DNA of 64,000 nucleotides from Gallionellales bacterium GWA2_60_142. GTDB lineage: Bacteria > Pseudomonadota > Gammaproteobacteria > Burkholderiales > Gallionellaceae. Numbering within the stretch: position 1 is the first letter of the stretch; each line of letters opens with the position of its first letter. The notes below the pieces were generated by a model that worked only from the letters and a program-made list of their open reading frames with translations, made no database searches and had not been told where the DNA came from. Both the position numbers and the translations under genes were made by a program. Below are positions 45,523 through 55,825 of the stretch, piece by piece. Where the stretch lies: assembly GCA_001801085.1 (NCBI GenBank), contig MGWR01000021.1:18522-82521 (forward strand), in the 5' to 3' direction.

Positions 45523-48500
45523 ATGAAAAGACGGCCCGGTATTGCGGAGTCGGCGATGCGTTCCAGCGGATTTCTCCCTCGGCTGGCGGCTGGCCTGCTG
45601 CTGGTCAATTTGTGCGTCGCAGTGCTCGCGGCATGGAGCATGTGGCAGAACTTCCGGATACACGAGGAGCAGGCCGAACTGGCCACGCAAAATCTGGCGC
45701 GCGCGCTGGAGAGCGATCTTGCCGGGGCGATCCGGACCGACGAAATGGCGTTGCATAGTGTGCTCGACGAACTCTATCGGCAGCGCGCCGCAGGTCGTGT
45801 GGACGCGCAAGCGCTCAACTTCTATATCGAACGGGTGCGCGAGCGGTTGCCCGAGATCGACGCGATTCGCATCACCGATGCGCAGGGCGTGCTGTTGTAT
45901 GGCACCGGGGTGAACTCGCAGGAGCGTAAGTCGTTGGCCGACCGGCCGCATTTCATCCGGCTGCGCGACGATCCGGCCGCGAATCTTGCGTTTTCCAAGC
46001 CGCAGATCAGCCGCGTCAACGATAAATTGGTGCAGGTACTGGCTCACCGTATCGAGCGTGCCGATGGTGCGTTCGACGGCATGGTGTTCGCGGCGATTCC
46101 GCTGGACTATCTGGCGAGGACATTTTCTACGCTGGATATCGGCAAGAACGGCATGGTGGCCTTGCGCGACGCCGACCTGGAGCTGGTGGTGCGCTATCCG
46201 GAGTCCGGCCTGAGCGAGTTGGCGGTTGGCGGCAAGATGCCGCCTTCGGAGTTGTCGCAGTTTGCAGCTTCGGGCATGACTGCCGGCAGCTATACCGCCA
46301 CTTCTTTGGCAGACGGCATCGGGCGGATGATCTCGTTCCGCAAGCTGCCGAATTATCCGTTTTACATCCAAGTTGGCTGGGCGCGCGACGATTATCTGGC
46401 GGCCACGCGTCAGGAAGCGAAAGAGCTGGCTGTGCTGGTGGTGCTGTTCGTCCTGCTGACGCTGGTGGCAGGCGGACTGATTCTCCGCACCTGGCAGGGG
46501 CAGCGCCGGATCAATCGCGCGCTGGCCGAGAGTGAGACGCGCCTGAACGAGTTGTTCGAAAACATGAGCAGCGGCGTTGCAATCTATCGTGTCGATGAGG
46601 AGGGCAAACGATTCGTGTTCGACGCATTCAATCGTGCGGCGGAGCGCATCGAGAAAATGTCGCGCGGCGAGGTGATCGGGCGAGAGGTAATCGATGTGTT
46701 CCCCGGGATCGAAAAGCTGGGATTGCTGGAGGTGTTCCGGCGCGTCTGGCAGACCGGCAAGTCAGAGCATTTCCCGCTGTCGCTCTATCGCGACGGTCGC
46801 GTCACCGGATGGCGCGACAATTTCGTGTACAAACTGCCGGGCGGAGAGATCGTCGCGATCTACGACGACGTGACCGAGCGCATACGGGCCGAAGAGTCGT
46901 TACGCTTGAGCGAAGAGCGCTATCGCGCAACTTTCGACCATGCCGCGGTGGGTATAGCCCAGGTTGCTACCGACGGGCGCTTCCTGGAGATCAATTCGGT
47001 GTTCTGCGACATCATCGGATATACCCGCGAAGAGGTGCTGTCGCAGGGATTTACCTTCCAGCAGATCACCCTGCCGGAAGATCTTGCGCCGGATATGGCG
47101 CAGGTGCAGCGCCTGCTCGACGGCGCGGATAATCAGTACGCCATGGAAAAACGTTACGTCCGCAAGGATGGCTGCGTGGTCTGGGTAAGCCTGTCGGTGG
47201 CGCTGTTGCGCGACGAGGCGGGCAAGCCGCTGCATTTCATCAGTTCGGTGGCTGACATCACCGAGCGCAAACAGGCAGAACAGACGGTGCGATTCAGCAT
47301 GGAAAAGCTGAACGAGGCGCAGCGCATCGCCCAGGTCGGCAACTGGGACTTGGATCTGGGCGGAGGCTATCTGTATTGGTCGGACGAGATATTCAACTTG
47401 TTCGAGATCGACAAGGAGATGTTCGCTGCTTCCTACGAGGCGTTCCTCAACGCGATCCATCCGGACGACAGGGACAGGGTGAATCAGGCCTACACCCGCT
47501 CGCTGGAAACGCGGCAACCCTATGAAATTATGCATCGCCTGTTGATGGCCGACGGCCGGGTCAAGTGGGTGAACGAACGCTGCGAGACTTTCTACGATGC
47601 GCAGGGCAAGGCGTTGCGTTCGGTGGGAACGGTGCAGGACATTACCCTGCGCAAACAGGCCGAAGAGGCGCTGGCGCAAAACGAACTGCTGTTGCGCACC
47701 ATTTTCAACACGTTGCCGGTCGGCGTGTGGGTGACCGACGCACAGGGGACCATCCGGCTCGGCAACGAGGCCAGCCAGCGGATATGGGCGGGGTCAAGAT
47801 ATGTCGGGCTGAAACAGTATGGCGAATACCGCGGCTGGTGGCACGATAGCGGAAAGCCCATCGCGCCGGAGGAATGGGCGCTGGCCAGGGCGGTCACCAG
47901 GGGCGAGGTCTCGCTGAACGAGTTGGTCGATATCCAGTGCTTCGACGGCGCGCGCAAGACGATACTCAACTCGGCGATGCCGTTGCGCAACGATGAGCAG
48001 GAGATCGCCGGAGCGATCGTGGTGATCCAGGACATTACCGACCGCATCGAATCCGAAATGGAACTGAAGGAGAAGAGCGAGGCGTTGCAACGATCCAATT
48101 CCGACCTCGAACGCTTCGCCTACAGCGTGTCGCACGACATGCGCCAGCCGTTGCGCGCGGTGAGCGGCCATCTGCAACTGCTGCAGCGCAGCATGAAGAA
48201 CAAGCTCGACGACGACGAACGCGAGAACATGAACTTTGCGCTGGAAGGCGCAAAGCGCATGGATTCGATGATCGTGTCGCTGCTCGACTATTCGCGCGTA
48301 GGGCGCAAGACCGAGGCCAAAGCGTTGATGCCGGCGCGCGAGGCGCTGGAGGATGCGATGGGTTTCCTGGGGCCGATGATGCACGACTCCGAGGCGGAGG
48401 TCAGTGTCGCCGGCGAGTGGCCGCAGGTGTATGCCAGCCGCGACGAGTTGACGCGGCTGTTCCAGAATCTGATTGGCAATGCATTGCACTACCACGAGCA

Positions 48501-48801
48501 GGATCAGGCGCCGCGCGTCGAGATCGAATCCTCGATTGGCGAACGACAGTGGCGGGTGATGGTGCGTGACCACGGCATCGGCATTGATCCCGCGCAACTG
48601 GACCGGCTGTTCCAGTTCTTCAGCCGGCTGCAATCGCGCGCGCGCTTCGAGGGAACCGGCATGGGGCTGGCGCTGTGCCGGCGCATCGTCGAGCACCACG
48701 GCGGGCGGATATGGGCGGAGTCGGAAGGGGAAGGCAGAGGCAGCACCTTTTCCTTCGAGTTGCCGTTGACCGCGATGGAGGAGGGCAAGACCGATGCGTA
48801 A
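45523..48801 (+). CDS. Large sensor histidine kinase (Cache, four PAS)
   Basis: A 1092-residue hybrid-free kinase. Transmembrane helices at about 16-38 and 303-325 bracket a periplasmic Cache-type domain (LARALESDLAGAI at its start). Four PAS domains follow (about 340-455, 458-590, 595-715, 720-840), then a phytochrome-type HisKA with H871 in SVSHDMRQPLRAV and a HATPase with LIGNALHYHE, DHGIGIDP and GTGMGLALCRRIVEHHGG. Active residues are complete. It overlaps the PhnD-like gene by eight bases and leads the co-oriented signalling run; a 130-base gap separates it from the PDE gene. Confidence 0.93.
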   Translation: MKRRPGIAESAMRSSGFLPRLAAGLLLVNLCVAVLAAWSMWQNFRIHEEQAELATQNLARALESDLAGAIRTDEMALHSVLDELYRQRAAGRVDAQALNFYIERVRERLPEIDAIRITDAQGVLLYGTGVNSQERKSLADRPHFIRLRDDPAANLAFSKPQISRVNDKLVQVLAHRIERADGAFDGMVFAAIPLDYLARTFSTLDIGKNGMVALRDADLELVVRYPESGLSELAVGGKMPPSELSQFAASGMTAGSYTATSLADGIGRMISFRKLPNYPFYIQVGWARDDYLAATRQEAKELAVLVVLFVLLTLVAGGLILRTWQGQRRINRALAESETRLNELFENMSSGVAIYRVDEEGKRFVFDAFNRAAERIEKMSRGEVIGREVIDVFPGIEKLGLLEVFRRVWQTGKSEHFPLSLYRDGRVTGWRDNFVYKLPGGEIVAIYDDVTERIRAEESLRLSEERYRATFDHAAVGIAQVATDGRFLEINSVFCDIIGYTREEVLSQGFTFQQITLPEDLAPDMAQVQRLLDGADNQYAMEKRYVRKDGCVVWVSLSVALLRDEAGKPLHFISSVADITERKQAEQTVRFSMEKLNEAQRIAQVGNWDLDLGGGYLYWSDEIFNLFEIDKEMFAASYEAFLNAIHPDDRDRVNQAYTRSLETRQPYEIMHRLLMADGRVKWVNERCETFYDAQGKALRSVGTVQDITLRKQAEEALAQNELLLRTIFNTLPVGVWVTDAQGTIRLGNEASQRIWAGSRYVGLKQYGEYRGWWHDSGKPIAPEEWALARAVTRGEVSLNELVDIQCFDGARKTILNSAMPLRNDEQEIAGAIVVIQDITDRIESEMELKEKSEALQRSNSDLERFAYSVSHDMRQPLRAVSGHLQLLQRSMKNKLDDDERENMNFALEGAKRMDSMIVSLLDYSRVGRKTEAKALMPAREALEDAMGFLGPMMHDSEAEVSVAGEWPQVYASRDELTRLFQNLIGNALHYHEQDQAPRVEIESSIGERQWRVMVRDHGIGIDPAQLDRLFQFFSRLQSRARFEGTGMGLALCRRIVEHHGGRIWAESEGEGRGSTFSFELPLTAMEEGKTDA

Positions 48802-49699
48802 CATCATGTCATTGTTGGGGCTGGCGATACTGTTGTCGCTGGCCGGTTGCGGCGACGGGCAGCAGGAATACCAGCCCGGTTTCGCCGAAAAGCAGGAGCA
48901 GCCCGAGAAGCATTACAGCTTTGCGATCCATCCGCTGCACAATCCCGAGATGCTGCTGGAACGTTACGGCCCTATCGTCGATTACCTGAATCGCAACATC
49001 AAGGGTGTGCATTTCACGCTGGAGGCCTCGCGCAACTACGATGAGTTCGACAAGAAACTGTATGCCGGTCAACCCGATTTCGCGCTGCCCAATCCCTATC
49101 AGACCATCAATTCGCTGAAGCACGGCTACCATGTGTTCGGAAAAATGGGTGACGACCATAATTTTACCGGCGTCTGGCTGGTGCGGCGCGATTCGGGCAT
49201 CCGCAAGGTGACCGATCTCAAGGGCAAGAAGGTCAGTTATCCGGCGAAAACCGCGCTGGCCGCGACGATGATGCCGCAGTATTACCTGCACACTCACGGC
49301 ATCGATGTGAACAAGGATGTCGAGAATCTCTATGTGGGATCGCAGGAGTCGTCGATCATGAACGTCTATCTCGGACAGGTTTCTGCGGGGGCGACCTGGC
49401 CTATTCCGTGGATGCTGTTCCAGAAGGAACAGCCGGAAAAGGCCGCGCAACTCGAAAAGATATGGGAGACGGAGCCGCTGATCAACAACGGACTGGTCGC
49501 GCGCGGCGACATGCCGCCGGAACTGGTCGAGCGGGTGGCAACGCTGCTCTCCACGCTGCACGAGAACGACGAGGGGCGGGCGATGCTGGGGCGGCTGCCG
49601 ATTTCGCGCTTCGAACGGGCCAACGACGCGAGCTACGACGTGGTGCGTTCCTTCCTCGATACCTTCTCGCGCAAAGTGCGCCCGCTGGAGCCACAATGA
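48794..49699 (+). CDS. PhnD-like periplasmic binding lipoprotein
   Basis: A 301-residue lipoprotein with lipobox LSLAGCG and a type-2 substrate-binding fold: YSFAIHPLHNPEMLLERYGP, PNPYQTINSLKHGYHVFGKM, GVWLVRRDSGIRKVTDLKGK, VSAGATWPIPWM. This is the phosphate/phosphite/phosphonate (PhnD/TctC-like) family, but no ABC permease or ATPase gene is nearby. Situated between two sensor kinase genes and coupled to both by overlap, it most likely presents a ligand to the kinase, as in two-component systems with periplasmic co-receptors. Confidence 0.88.
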   Translation: MRNIMSLLGLAILLSLAGCGDGQQEYQPGFAEKQEQPEKHYSFAIHPLHNPEMLLERYGPIVDYLNRNIKGVHFTLEASRNYDEFDKKLYAGQPDFALPNPYQTINSLKHGYHVFGKMGDDHNFTGVWLVRRDSGIRKVTDLKGKKVSYPAKTALAATMMPQYYLHTHGIDVNKDVENLYVGSQESSIMNVYLGQVSAGATWPIPWMLFQKEQPEKAAQLEKIWETEPLINNGLVARGDMPPELVERVATLLSTLHENDEGRAMLGRLPISRFERANDASYDVVRSFLDTFSRKVRPLEPQ

Positions 49700-51183
49700 A
49701 CTTCGCACCCGTCAAGCTGCGCCGTTTCTGGTTCGCCTCGATCCGGCGGCAAGTGATGCTGTCGTTCGCCGCCGTGTCGGTGCTGGTGATGCTGTCGTTC
49801 GGCTACGGCATTCTGGAACAGGAGCGCAATTTCCTGCGCAAGCAGAGCATCGATTATGCACAGGGGCTCGCCCATACCGTGGCGGTCAGCAGCGCTTCCT
49901 GGGTCGTGGCGAACGATGTGGTCGGCTTGCAGGAAGTGCTGGCCAGCGTCGGACGCACTCGCAGCCTGCGCTATGCGCTGGTGTTGTCGTCCGAGGGGCG
50001 CGTGCTGGCATCGAGCCAGCCGAAGAATGTCGGGTTGTTTGTCAGCGATGCGCTGAGCCGCAAGCTGCTCGACGCAACCGCGCCCAAACCGATGGTGTTG
50101 CTCGACAACGCGGCGATGATAGACGTTGCCGAACCGGTGATGCTGGGTGGCCGTATGGTCGGCTGGGTGCGCATCGGCTTTGGGCGCGACGAAATGCAGG
50201 CCAACCTGCGCAAGGTTGAACGAACGGGTTACCTGATGATGATCGTTTCCATCGTCGCGACAATGCTGGTTGCGCTGGCGCTGTCGGGGCGGGTGACCGG
50301 GCGTTTGCAGCAACTGGTGGATGTGGCGAACCAGATTCATGCCGGGCGACGCGATGCGCGCGCGCAAGTGAGCGGCAGCGACGAGGTGAGCGTGCTGGCG
50401 GACAATTTCAATACGATGCTGAACGAACTGGAGAAGTCGGAGCGCGGACTCGCAGCGCGCGGCAATGCTCTGTCGCGCGCCAATGCCGACTTGATGCGCT
50501 TCGCTGAAATCTCGGCGCATCACCTGATGGAGCCGTCGCGCCGTCTTTCGGTTTACGGACAAAATCTGCGCGAGCGTATCGATGCCATTTCCGACTTGCG
50601 CCAGGACAGCGAGGTGCGCAACTCGCTCGAGTACATAGAACGGGATGCGGCGCGGCTGCGCAACCTGGTGCGCGACATCCAGCTCTATCTGGCGGCGAGC
50701 GAGCCGCGAGGCGTAGTATGCGAAGAAGACGCGAACGCCGTGGTCGCCGCGCTGGAGCGTCGACTGGCGCAGCGCCTGCAGGAGCAGGGGGCCGTGCTTG
50801 AACGCGGACCGCTGCCGCCGGCGATGCTGGACAAGCCGCGCCTCAACGACTTGTTTGCGGTGTTGCTCGACAACGCGCTGATCCATGCCTGTCCGCTCGA
50901 TCCGGCGCAGACGCTGCATATCCGCATCGATGGCGAACGTGGCGAAGGTTTGAGTCGTTATCGCGTCGCCGACAACGGCCCGGGCATCCCGGCGGAATAC
51001 CGAGAACGGGTGTTCGAGATATTCGAGCGTCTGACGACGGGGGGCGAGGGCGGTTCGGGCATCGGTCTGTCGATTGCGCGCCGCATCGTCGAGAGCCGCC
51101 ACGGCCGGATATGGGTCGAGCAGGGAGAGCGGGGCGGCGTGGTGGTGGTGTTCGAACTGCCGGATCGGGATGACGCGGAGTAG
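49696..51183 (+). CDS. Membrane histidine kinase, paralogue 1
   Basis: A 495-residue kinase with transmembrane helices at about 17-37 and 173-195, a periplasmic sensor of about 135 residues, a HAMP domain (SGRVTGRLQQLVDVANQIHA; GSDEVSVLADNFNTMLNEL), a His-box with HH at 275-276 in SAHHLMEPSRRL, and a HATPase domain with DNALIHACPLDPAQ, VADNGPGIPAEYRERVF and GSGIGLSIARRIVESRHG. The last 230 residues are nearly the same as in the next gene. The start overlaps the PhnD-like stop (ATGA). Confidence 0.92.
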   Translation: MNFAPVKLRRFWFASIRRQVMLSFAAVSVLVMLSFGYGILEQERNFLRKQSIDYAQGLAHTVAVSSASWVVANDVVGLQEVLASVGRTRSLRYALVLSSEGRVLASSQPKNVGLFVSDALSRKLLDATAPKPMVLLDNAAMIDVAEPVMLGGRMVGWVRIGFGRDEMQANLRKVERTGYLMMIVSIVATMLVALALSGRVTGRLQQLVDVANQIHAGRRDARAQVSGSDEVSVLADNFNTMLNELEKSERGLAARGNALSRANADLMRFAEISAHHLMEPSRRLSVYGQNLRERIDAISDLRQDSEVRNSLEYIERDAARLRNLVRDIQLYLAASEPRGVVCEEDANAVVAALERRLAQRLQEQGAVLERGPLPPAMLDKPRLNDLFAVLLDNALIHACPLDPAQTLHIRIDGERGEGLSRYRVADNGPGIPAEYRERVFEIFERLTTGGEGGSGIGLSIARRIVESRHGRIWVEQGERGGVVVVFELPDRDDAE

Positions 51184-51206
51184 CGCGGTGTGCGGGGGAT
51201 AGCCGG

Positions 51207-52706
51207 GTGAACGACACGAAAATACAACTGGAGAGAGCGCAGTACTTTTTCTCCCCATACCGGGCGGCAGCAATCGCAACGCTGCTCTGGTGCGCAGCCA
51301 TGGGCGGTTTCCTGGCATGGTATGTCAGCGTGATGCAGGATCACACGGAACAATTGGCGCGTAACGAGGTGCGCATCATATTCAACAAGGATCTGTCGTT
51401 CCGGCGCTGGGTGACCAGCCATGGCGGTGTGTATGCGCCGGTCGATGACAAGACACTACCGAATCCCGGGCTGTCCCATCTGACCGAGCGCGACATAAAA
51501 ACTCCCTCCGGCAAGGAGCTGACGCTGATGAATCCGGCCTACGTGATGCGCCAGGTGATGACCGATTTTGGCGAGCTGTATGGCGGCAAGGGCAAGCTGA
51601 CCAGCCTCAATCCGATCAATCCCGCCAATGCGCCGGACGAATGGGAGCGGGCGGCGCTGCTGCGTTTCGAGAAGGGCGAGCGCGAGATCGCCGAAGTCAG
51701 CGAGATCGACGGCCAGCCGTATCTGCGCCAAATCGGCGTGCTGATGGTGGAGTCGGGTTGCATGAAGTGCCATGGACGTCAGGGTTACAAGGTGGGCGAC
51801 GTGCGCGGCGGCATCACCATCTCGATTCCGATGCAACCCCACCTCGAGCGCATGTACGGCGACATACGCAAGATGCTGCTGCCGTTCGGCGCGATCTTGC
51901 TGCTGGGGCTGGCGCTGATTGCGTTGCTGGTGCGCCAGGTGCGGCGGCGCATCGAGGTGCAGCGAGCCGGCGACGAGGCATTGCGCCTCAGCAGCGCCGA
52001 AGTTGCACGTGCCAATGCCGACCTGACGCGTTTTGCCGACGTCTCCGCGCATCACCTGATCGGGCCGGTACGGCGTTTGGGCAGCTATACCCAGTTGTTG
52101 CGCAAGGAATTGGCGGCCTACCCCGCGACATTCGCCGAACCGGGCGTGCAAGAAACGCTGGCCTATCTGGAGCGCGATGCAGCCAGATTGCGCATTCTGG
52201 TGCGCGACATCCAGCTCTATCTGGCCGGAGGCGTGCCGCGCGGCGAAGTGCGGCAGGAGGGCGCGGATACCGTGGTCGCTGCGCTGGAGCATCAGCTGGC
52301 ACCGAGGCTGGAAGAATCCGGCGCGGTTATCGAACGCGATCCGTTGCCGCCGGCGGTGCTGGACAAGCCGCGTCTCAACGATTTGTTTGCGGTGCTGGTC
52401 GACAATGCGCTGATCCATGCCCGTCCGCTCGACCCGGCGCAGCCGTTGCGCATCCGCATCAGCGGCGAGCGTGGCGACGGATTGAGCCGCTATCGGGTAG
52501 CCGACAACGGGCCAGGCATCCGCGTCGAATACCGCGAACGGGTGTTCGAGATATTCGAACGGCTGACGGCGGGGGACGAGAGCGGCTCGGGCATCGGGCT
52601 GTCGATCGCACGTCGCATCGTCGAGAGCCGGCATGGGCGGATATGGATAGAGCCGGGCGATCAGGGCGGCGCCGCGGTGGTGTTCGAGTTGCCGGATGCG
52701 GGCTGA
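51207..52706 (+). CDS. Histidine kinase with periplasmic c-type haem domain, paralogue 2
   Basis: A 499-residue kinase. A helix at about 17-40, a periplasmic Tll0287/DUF3365-type domain with a CxxCH haem site (C185, C188, H189 in ESGCMKCHGRQGYKVGD) and a second helix at about 222-242. No HAMP is seen. The His-box has HH at 282-283 in SAHHLIGPVRRL, and the HATPase is close to that of paralogue 1. The haem points to sensing of redox state, O2 or NO. Start is GTG with GGGGGA upstream. It follows paralogue 1 after 23 bases. Confidence 0.92.
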   Translation: MNDTKIQLERAQYFFSPYRAAAIATLLWCAAMGGFLAWYVSVMQDHTEQLARNEVRIIFNKDLSFRRWVTSHGGVYAPVDDKTLPNPGLSHLTERDIKTPSGKELTLMNPAYVMRQVMTDFGELYGGKGKLTSLNPINPANAPDEWERAALLRFEKGEREIAEVSEIDGQPYLRQIGVLMVESGCMKCHGRQGYKVGDVRGGITISIPMQPHLERMYGDIRKMLLPFGAILLLGLALIALLVRQVRRRIEVQRAGDEALRLSSAEVARANADLTRFADVSAHHLIGPVRRLGSYTQLLRKELAAYPATFAEPGVQETLAYLERDAARLRILVRDIQLYLAGGVPRGEVRQEGADTVVAALEHQLAPRLEESGAVIERDPLPPAVLDKPRLNDLFAVLVDNALIHARPLDPAQPLRIRISGERGDGLSRYRVADNGPGIRVEYRERVFEIFERLTAGDESGSGIGLSIARRIVESRHGRIWIEPGDQGGAAVVFELPDAG

Positions 52707-52843
52707 CTGTGCGAAGACAATGGGGGCGGGTTCTGGATTCCGCCGGGGAATACGCTCCATCCGGAAGCAGGGCTTGATACACTGAAGGCATGTGTTTGCC
52801 TTGAATGCAAAGCTGGAATCGAACTTTAATGAGGAGTACGACT

Positions 52844-53290
52844 ATGCTGGTTGAAAATTCGCAACCTTTCGACATTCTGCTGGTGGAGGATGAACCGGCG
52901 GATGCCAATCTGGTGCGTTCCGCGCTGAAGGAAAACAAGGTGCTGTGCAATCTGCATCATGTGCTGGACGGTGTCGAGGCGCTGGAGTTCCTGCGCCGCG
53001 AGGGGCCGCACCGGGACGCACCACAGCCCGACCTGATCCTGCTCGACCTGAACATGCCGCGCATGAACGGGCGCGAGTTTCTCGCGGCGGTGAAGGCCGA
53101 CGATGTGCTGAAGCTGATACCGGTGGTGGTGCTGACGACATCCGATGTCGAACGGGATGTGGTTGCTTCCTACAAGCTGGGTGCAGCCGGTTATATCACC
53201 AAGCCGGTGGACATGGATCAGTTCGTCGATGCGATCCGACAGCTCGACAGCTACTGGTTTGTATTGGCGCGTCTGCCGAAGAGGGTATGA
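52844..53290 (+). CDS. Single-domain response regulator (Rcp1-like)
   Basis: A 148-residue stand-alone receiver: LLVEDEPADANLVRSALKEN, phospho-acceptor in LILLDLNMPRMNGREFLAAV, T in VVVLTTSDVERD and K in GAAGYITKPVDMDQF. The extended loop between helix 2 and strand 3 (RREGPHRDAPQPD) is the mark of phytochrome-associated Rcp receivers, matching the phytochrome-type HisKA of the neighbouring kinases. With no output domain it may pass phosphate or regulate by binding. Start after GAGGAGTACG. Overlaps the next gene by four bases. Confidence 0.92.
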   Translation: MLVENSQPFDILLVEDEPADANLVRSALKENKVLCNLHHVLDGVEALEFLRREGPHRDAPQPDLILLDLNMPRMNGREFLAAVKADDVLKLIPVVVLTTSDVERDVVASYKLGAAGYITKPVDMDQFVDAIRQLDSYWFVLARLPKRV

Positions 53291-54615
53291 CGATGTTCCG
53301 CAATCCGGCCTGCCGTGTCCTGCTGGTGGAGGATGACGCCGGAGATGCCAGCCTGGTGCGCCAGATGCTGCGCGCCAATGCCGATCCTCGCTTCGAGATC
53401 GCGCTGGCCGGTACGCTGGCCGAGATGCGCGAGCGATTGAGCGGGGCGACGCCGGACGTGCTGTTGCTGGATCTGTCGTTGCCCGACTCCCAGGGGCTGG
53501 AGACTATACATGCCGCCAGACGCGCTGCAAATGCACTGCCGCTGATCGTGCTGACCGGGTACGACGACACCGAGTTTGCGCTGAAATCGCTGGATGCCGG
53601 TGCGCAGGACTATCTGGTCAAGGGCGCATTCAATACCGACGGTCTGGTGCGCGCGATCCGCTATGCGATCGGCCGCGCGCGGCTGGAGCAGCGCGTGCAC
53701 GATGCCGAGGAGCGCTGGCGTTTTGCACTGGAAGGTTCCGGCGATGGCGTGTGGGACTGGAGTGTGCCGAGTGGCGAGGTGCAGTTCTCGCAACGCTGGA
53801 AAGAGATGATCGGTTACTCCGAGGACGAGATCGGGGACAAGCTCGACGAGTGGGAAAAACGTATCCATCCAGACGATCGGGCGCGGGTGAAGGCCGATGT
53901 GCAGGCGCACTTCGACGGCAAGACGGCTACCTATATCAACGAACATCGGGTCTGTTGCAAGAACGGCGAATGGAAGTGGATACTCGACCGCGGCAAGGTG
54001 GTGAGCCGCGACGTCGCTGGCAAGCCGCTGCGGATGATAGGCCTGCATACCGACATCACCGAGCGCAAGCATATCGAAGAACGCATCCGCCATATGGCAC
54101 AGCACGATACGCTGACCGATCTGCCCAATCGCGCGTTGTTCAGCGACCGTTTGCAGCAGGCGCTCGCAGTCGCCAAGCGCGACCAGTTGCGACTGGCGGT
54201 GTTATATATCGATCTGGACAAGTTCAAGCCGATCAACGACAGCCTGGGGCACGATGTAGGCGACCTGATGCTTAAGGAAGTGGCGCAGCGTATGCAGGCT
54301 TGCGTGCGTGAATCTGACACCGTGGCGCGCATCGGCGGCGACGAATTCGTCGTGCTGTTGCGCAACGTCGAGACCCCGGACGATGCCGTGCGTGTCGCGG
54401 AAAAGATACGGTTTGCGCTAAATCAGCCGTTCGATATCGCCGGACGGACATTGAATATTTCGTCCAGCACCGGCATCGCGATCTATCCGGATCACGGCAG
54501 CAATGAAATCGAACTGTCCAAGAATGCCGACATGGCGATGTACACCGCCAAACAGAGCGGACGCGACAACGTCAAACTGTTCGTTTCCGAACGCGACTCG
54601 ATGCCCGGTTGCTGA
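53287..54615 (+). CDS. Receiver-PAS-GGDEF diguanylate cyclase
   Basis: A 442-residue cytoplasmic protein. The receiver (about 8-130) has LLVEDDAGDASLVRQMLRA, VLLLDLSLPDSQGLETI and GAQDYLVKG, like the phosphodiesterase at 42.9 kb. One PAS domain (about 140-265) has WDWSVPSGEVQFSQRWKEMI. The GGDEF domain has ARIGGDEFVVLL, intact, with an inhibitory RESD five residues before it. Its output opposes the phosphodiesterase. Start overlaps the Rcp-like stop. Confidence 0.93.
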   Translation: MTMFRNPACRVLLVEDDAGDASLVRQMLRANADPRFEIALAGTLAEMRERLSGATPDVLLLDLSLPDSQGLETIHAARRAANALPLIVLTGYDDTEFALKSLDAGAQDYLVKGAFNTDGLVRAIRYAIGRARLEQRVHDAEERWRFALEGSGDGVWDWSVPSGEVQFSQRWKEMIGYSEDEIGDKLDEWEKRIHPDDRARVKADVQAHFDGKTATYINEHRVCCKNGEWKWILDRGKVVSRDVAGKPLRMIGLHTDITERKHIEERIRHMAQHDTLTDLPNRALFSDRLQQALAVAKRDQLRLAVLYIDLDKFKPINDSLGHDVGDLMLKEVAQRMQACVRESDTVARIGGDEFVVLLRNVETPDDAVRVAEKIRFALNQPFDIAGRTLNISSSTGIAIYPDHGSNEIELSKNADMAMYTAKQSGRDNVKLFVSERDSMPGC

Positions 54616-54616
54616 A

Positions 54617-55024
54617 TCAATCCTGCATCAGCACGGCAGCCCCTGCTGCCGCAATCTGCCCGTCCTGGAACGAGCGCACTCCGCTGATTCCCAGCCCTCC
54701 GATCACCACGCCGTCGCGTTCCAGCGGCACGCCGCCCTCGGCCGGAATCACGCCGGGTAGCGCCAGATGGATCAGGCGTCCGCTCATCACCGCATCTTCG
54801 GAGGCCTTGGTCGGGATGTGCAATGCGGCGGACATGCGCGCCTTGGCGATCGCCGTTTCGACACTGCCGAAGCGCGTATCGTGGCTGCGCTGCATATACA
54901 GCATGTGACCGCCGTCATCGACGACGACGATGGATACCTTCCAGCCGTTCGCCTGCGCTTCGGCATCGGCTGCGGCAGCGATGCGTTTTGCATCCTCCAG
55001 CGTCAGGATCTGTTTGGTCGCCAT
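54617..55024 (-). CDS. GlcG/HbpS-family protein
   Basis: A 135-residue protein with the family pattern LTLEDAKRIAAAADAEAQAN, VSIVVVDDGGHMLYMQR, and IPAEGGVPLERDGVVIGGLG-ISG. Members are small haem or cobalamin-binding or glycolate-linked proteins. The reading begins two bases after the adk stop, so both lie on one message. It converges on the signalling run with one base between stops. Confidence 0.88.
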   Translation of the reverse strand: MATKQILTLEDAKRIAAAADAEAQANGWKVSIVVVDDGGHMLYMQRSHDTRFGSVETAIAKARMSAALHIPTKASEDAVMSGRLIHLALPGVIPAEGGVPLERDGVVIGGLGISGVRSFQDGQIAAAGAAVLMQD

Positions 55025-55025
55025 C

Positions 55026-55825
<800 letters not shown>

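Follow-up and report, generated by a model that had tools for sequence, protein, structure and literature searches.

In the 64,000-nucleotide stretch of Gallionellaceae DNA analysed here (the window), two neighbouring genes, HK1 and HK2, join much the same C-terminal output core to unrelated sensors, which raises the question of what two such proteins do side by side and how the pair arose. A preliminary description had taken them for ordinary histidine kinases that were caught in place after a tandem duplication with replacement of the sensor. We find instead that both look like response-regulator phosphatases of the DrBphP type, apparently paired with a real kinase encoded next to them, a point absent from that description, and that the part they share is shorter than was thought.

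Results

A tandem of two sensor genes and its neighbours

Both genes are present as open reading frames on the forward strand, among the following features (window coordinates).

45523..48801, +, HK0: dCache, several PAS domains, canonical HisKA (SHDMRQP, H at about 48133) and HATPase_c (Pfam)
48794..49699, +, PhnD-type periplasmic binding (lipo)protein (Pfam Phosphonate-bd, 183 bits)
49696..51183, +, HK1: sCache_3_2 (about 49831-50217), HAMP (about 50281-50433), HHL-type DHp and CA (open reading frame, Pfam, BLASTP)
50470..50709, +, HK1 DHp domain (H-box HH at 50518-50523, H+4 Glu at 50530-50532)
50734..51165, +, HK1 CA block homogenised with HK2 (trees, site patterns, break-point scan)
51207..52706, +, HK2: TM, Tll0287/sCache_heme (about 51342-51830), TM, HHL-type DHp and CA (open reading frame, Pfam, AlphaFold)
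51759..51773, +, HK2 CMKCH c-haem attachment motif (CxxCH in the sequence)
52002..52241, +, HK2 DHp domain (HH at 52050-52055; H+4 Gly at 52062-52064, where the family has Glu)
52266..52697, +, HK2 CA block homogenised with HK1 (trees, site patterns, break-point scan)
52805..53290, +, Rcp1/DrRR-type single-domain response regulator (Pfam; nearest solved structures 5te9, RcpA, Rcp1 and DrRR 6xvu)
53305..54615, +, REC-PAS-GGDEF response regulator, predicted diguanylate cyclase (Pfam; kept downstream in many loci)

The stop codon of the PhnD-type gene overlaps the start of HK1 (ATGA), and 23 bases lie between the end of HK1 and the start of HK2. HK0, the predicted active kinase of the module judging by its sequence, holds the sole CAYGAYATGCGNCARCC site that a genome-wide pattern scan found in this genome. 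The regulator at 52805-53290 matches Rcp/DrRR over the full domain and the C-terminal extension. Convergent to the REC-PAS-GGDEF gene and adjoining the haem-sensor locus is an HbpS-like gene of a haem-degrading family (54617-55054, reverse strand); such a gene is also present at locus L026 (11386-12411, reverse strand).

HK1 and HK2 gave a single long BLASTP match (167/232 identical, 72%; E=7e-112; HK1 259-490, HK2 266-497), within which the identical stretches quoted earlier were found to be correct, and no real match between their N-terminal halves. Pfam assigns sCache_3_2, HAMP and HATPase_c to HK1, and a Tll0287-like domain (DUF3365, PF11845; 81.9 bits against a cut-off of 24.1) and HATPase_c to HK2. 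The preliminary description was thus right in seeing a tandem with swapped sensors on the same output core, with unrelated N-terminal halves and a Tll0287 CxxCH domain in one of them. The best match to the cores elsewhere in the 2.3-Mb genome reaches only 35% identity, and its H-box, AHDLKEP, is of the ordinary kind. With the Pfam HisKA model (PF00512), HK1 scores below the cut-off (13.6 against 26.9 bits) and HK2 gives no match; despite this, the core of the HK2 AlphaFold model (mean pLDDT 86, pTM 0.53) was matched structurally to HisKA-type cores such as that of RpBphP2 (TMt 0.77-0.79).

The cores carry a phosphatase-type signature

Nothing marks HK1 and HK2 as the ordinary kinases they had been named; their H-box and N-box are of the kinase-dead, phosphatase type. 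Over 73 aligned cores of this kind (here HHL), the H-box reads A-H-H-L-x-E-P-x-R. Histidine stands at H+1 in all 73, HK1 and HK2 included, and the first N-box Asn is found in none. Glu at H+4 and Arg at H+7 are each present in 71 of the 73; the two cores that lack the Glu are HK2 and its L026 orthologue, both with Gly, and the Arg is kept in HK1 and HK2. The neighbouring canonical kinases have an acidic H+1 residue (57/57) and the N-box Asn (57/57), and both groups retain the ATP-site D, G and second N-box Asn.

Among solved structures, the HHL cores are closest in sequence to those of DrBphP, a protein in which His at H+1 goes with the absence of kinase activity and which dephosphorylates DrRR; the N-box Asn is lost where H+1 is His, and H+4 Glu and H+7 Arg serve dephosphorylation (PMC8292422). 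In other HisKA proteins an acidic H+1 residue is required for kinase but not for phosphatase activity (PMC3510030). HK1 and HK2 are thus probably not kinases, and their motifs carry the signature of DrBphP-type response-regulator phosphatases. Overall they are only about 30% identical to DrBphP and no closer to it than their canonical partners, so this signature could be convergent. A phytochrome identity of the long HHL N-termini was considered and rejected, as Pfam finds none, and no PAS-GAF-PHY photosensory module was detected by Pfam in HK1, HK2 or the 20 relatives scanned.

It is unlikely that the HHL proteins are still kinases, with the second His or another residue acting as the base, or with HK0 phosphorylating them on His within a mixed dimer or a relay. 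Such a role would explain the conservation of the phospho-acceptor position and the ATP-site motifs, but it has to contend with the joint loss of the H+1 acid and the N-box Asn from every core, with the inactive kinase of DrBphP and with the D529H substitution, which abolishes the kinase activity of Agp1 (PMC8292422). The H533D substitution by itself fails to give DrBphP back a kinase activity (PMC8292422), so other residues matter as well.

The shared block begins after the DHp domain

The block common to HK1 and HK2 had been thought to run from the His-box to the C-terminus. Identity between the paralogues changes along the core, however, from 58% in DHp (residues 1-80) to 80% in CA (residues 81-232). 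Orthologues in the window and at L026 are 84-85% identical in DHp and 80-83% in CA; the DHp domain is not faster evolving but merely less related between the paralogues. The DNA comparison proposed for placing the junction was run as site patterns over four genes, namely HK1, HK2 and their counterparts in the tandem of the second Gallionella. In DHp the informative sites of the ortho, para and cross patterns number 43/2/2, against 9/12/9 for CA (Fisher p=4e-6). A single break fits best when placed between core codons 89 and 97, a fit that none of 5000 permutations equalled, and this puts it in the linker that joins DHp to CA (HK1, about 50734-50758; HK2, about 52266-52290).

The trees (FastTree and constrained IQ-TREE) also divide at this point. 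The DHp tree groups HK2 with L039, a Tll0287-HHL gene of another Gallionella (0.984), and a clade of the four cores is rejected (AU p=0.034); the CA tree unites the four cores (0.995), and there it is the competing topology that fails the AU test (p=0.022), these AU values of 0.02-0.03 coming from only 80 (DHp) and 152 (CA) columns. Site patterns, trees and AU tests thus place the junction after the DHp domain and confine the shared block to CA. The two cores go with different outside homologues in DHp and with each other in CA. Likewise, what is expected of a recent whole-core tandem duplicate, that its members be closer to each other than to outsiders, is seen in CA and not in DHp, where the best outside matches are 70-71% identical. 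After its orthologue, the sensor of HK2 is nearest to that of L039 (68%), and as its DHp groups with L039 too, the sensor and DHp of HK2 came together.

That the whole kinase core was duplicated and the sensor alone then replaced, as first described, is hard to credit. Both window cores and their L026 orthologues do form one clade in the whole-core tree (SH-aLRT 96), in keeping with 72% identity over 232 residues, but the clade is carried by CA, DHp alone joins HK2 to L039, and the outside DHp matches exceed the paralogue. Joint replacement of the sensor and DHp, a variant of this scheme, accounts for the data no less well than gene conversion. Of duplication with domain replacement, then, the common core with swapped sensors stands, and its extent does not, CA alone being shared.

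Two histories suit these results, homogenisation of CA by gene conversion and a single replacement of sensor and DHp together in a duplicated gene; the break-point analysis of the four cores favours neither direction of copying. We make no claim of conversion after the species split, as the para and cross patterns in CA do not differ (12 vs 9, p=0.66). The second Gallionella genome (L026, which appears to be the same site as G035) has the same tandem with the same neighbours, so the arrangement predates the split of the two species. Between the window and L026 the cores are 81% and 84% identical, the sensors 78% and 80%, and the PhnD proteins 85%. CA was homogenised at roughly the time when the species split, and there was no fresh duplication; "caught in place" was an overstatement. 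The case shows that exchange among histidine kinases can have its break between DHp and CA; nothing on point was found in the literature on tandem or gene-converted histidine kinases. Another two HHL genes, with PDC-PAS and CHASE sensors, stand in an independent tandem at L069 (5369-9500) and show no homogenisation of CA (50% identity there).

HK2 couples a predicted haem sensor to an altered core

The periplasmic domain of HK2 holds the CMKCH motif and no other cysteine. A signalling-type sCache_heme protein that has CxxCH and lacks the axial Cys binds NO and releases it slowly (PMC12889525). The input of HK2 may be NO or redox, received through its predicted periplasmic c-haem Cache domain. 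A phmmer search of the HK2 sensor among PDB sequences gave no match. A second, apparently stand-alone Tll0287 domain is encoded in the same genome (G000:C40:3505-3927, L013; a 196-residue open frame).

All seven Tll0287-HHL genes of other loci have Glu at H+4, versus Gly in HK2, which may, with this Glu lost, be phosphatase-dead too. In DrBphP, E536A lowers phosphatase activity, with a suggested shielding of phospho-DrRR; Gly is not among the substitutions listed (PMC8292422). Loss of the Glu from HK2 alone, in both species, would also suit a decaying, dispensable copy, but this is very improbable given a frame open in both genomes, a retained CxxCH, a sensor 80% identical between species, and the intact H+7 Arg, HH and ATP motifs.

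The module recurs with other sensors

With the two cores as queries, 67 loci were found on genome contigs of Gallionellaceae, Sulfuricella, Rhodocyclales, methanotrophs, Magnetospirillum and others. They were gathered partly by a peptide pattern containing HH, so that the edge of the family is not fully sampled; a second pattern without HH (LVRDIQLY) also gave HH members. Directly upstream of 43 of the 69 HHL genes lies a histidine-kinase gene, nearly always with SHDMRQP or SHDLRQP, and directly downstream of 56/69 an Rcp-type regulator, commonly followed by a REC-PAS-GGDEF gene. A PhnD gene is directly upstream in 6/69, and one precedes HHL sensors at loci L026, L029, L030, L043, L050 and L060 as well as in the window. 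Among 150 genomes of the family, SHDMRQP also occurs in 8/8 genomes with HHL and 20/142 others (Fisher p=6e-7), the eight including the source genome and related ones and thus not being fully independent. HHL is rare, being present in 2 of 399 sampled Pseudomonadota genomes, the source genome among them; a wide pattern matched six of the 399, only two of which hold real HHL cores.

The sensors that Pfam finds on HHL outputs include CHASE, CHASE+PAS, ETR1_N+PAS, LapD_MoxY_N+HAMP, CHASE8+HAMP, sCache_3+HAMP and Tll0287, and the cores that bear Tll0287 fall in several distinct regions of the core tree. At L040 and L084 (1297-7696; Methylotuvimicrobium and Methylomicrobium), two canonical SHDMRQP kinases precede a Tll0287-HHL gene, and directly downstream of it no Rcp regulator turned up. 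Sensor swapping on one core goes further in a genome of the same genus (L106 and L107, G144:C21:12711-44378), where nine SHDMRQP kinases stand in tandem, their cores 77-94% identical and their sensor sets different (HNOBA, PhnD-PAS, CHASE8-HAMP-PAS, HDOD-REC-PAS, MASE1-PAS and others), ahead of one Rcp-type regulator.

Discussion

The reading we favour, with fair though not high confidence, is that the locus forms one module in which the canonical HK0 and two kinase-dead sensors act on one Rcp-type regulator, and that HK1 and HK2 are two older HHL sensors whose CA was homogenised near the species split. The sequence anatomy, conservation of the module, break point and discordant trees are observed; the enzymatic activities are inferred by homology, and the ligands and the pairing of partners are predicted. 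HK0 would load phosphate onto the Rcp-type regulator, and HK1 would remove it when its Cache domain signals, probably through the PhnD-type binding protein. HK2, which keeps the H+7 Arg, would bind the regulator through the same DHp face, but with Gly at H+4 it is predicted to have little phosphatase activity, if any, and might shield the phospho-regulator from HK1 or compete for it. All three probably act on the adjoining REC-PAS-GGDEF protein too. As to their history, the two HHL sensors would be old neighbours that differ in sensor and DHp, with CA homogenised, by gene conversion or by a single copying of CA, around the split of the Gallionella species.

A bolder version is possible, though we hold it doubtful: HHL proteins would be dedicated response-regulator phosphatases that evolve by exchanging the sensor and DHp in front of a shared CA, with a fixed place beside SHDMRQP kinases in the operon, and HK2, haem-gated and with neither activity, would protect the phospho-regulator from HK1.

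In many two-component systems a single protein is both kinase and phosphatase. At this locus the two functions appear to be divided among adjacent genes, and the sensors on the phosphatase side (Cache, CHASE, LapD/MoxY, ETR1-like, haem-Cache) are interchangeable. If so, DrBphP, so far an oddity, would gain non-phytochrome relatives, and the locus would offer a simple, testable circuit that takes in a haem signal from the periplasm and is predicted to give c-di-GMP as output.

Several known systems resemble parts of this arrangement. With the sCache_heme/Tll0287 proteins, HK2 shares a TM-anchored Cache domain with CxxCH and without an axial Cys, fused to a signalling output, but that output is an HHL phosphatase-like core and its ligand is only predicted (PMC12889525). 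DrBphP and DrRR of Deinococcus radiodurans offer the HH H-box, the H+4 Glu (in HK1), the H+7 Arg, the loss of the N-box Asn seen in HK1 and HK2, and an Rcp/DrRR-type regulator (PMC8292422). Unlike DrBphP, HK1 and HK2 have periplasmic sensors in place of a phytochrome and a canonical kinase encoded alongside, and HK2 lacks the H+4 Glu. The Rcp1 and RcpA regulators are likewise single REC domains with a C-terminal extension that adjoin histidine-kinase genes, whereas the regulator here is served by non-phytochrome sensors. In multikinase networks of the RetS-GacS type, the output of a sensor kinase protein is held down by a second such protein that interacts with it directly; the antagonism that we propose would instead be exerted on a shared regulator.
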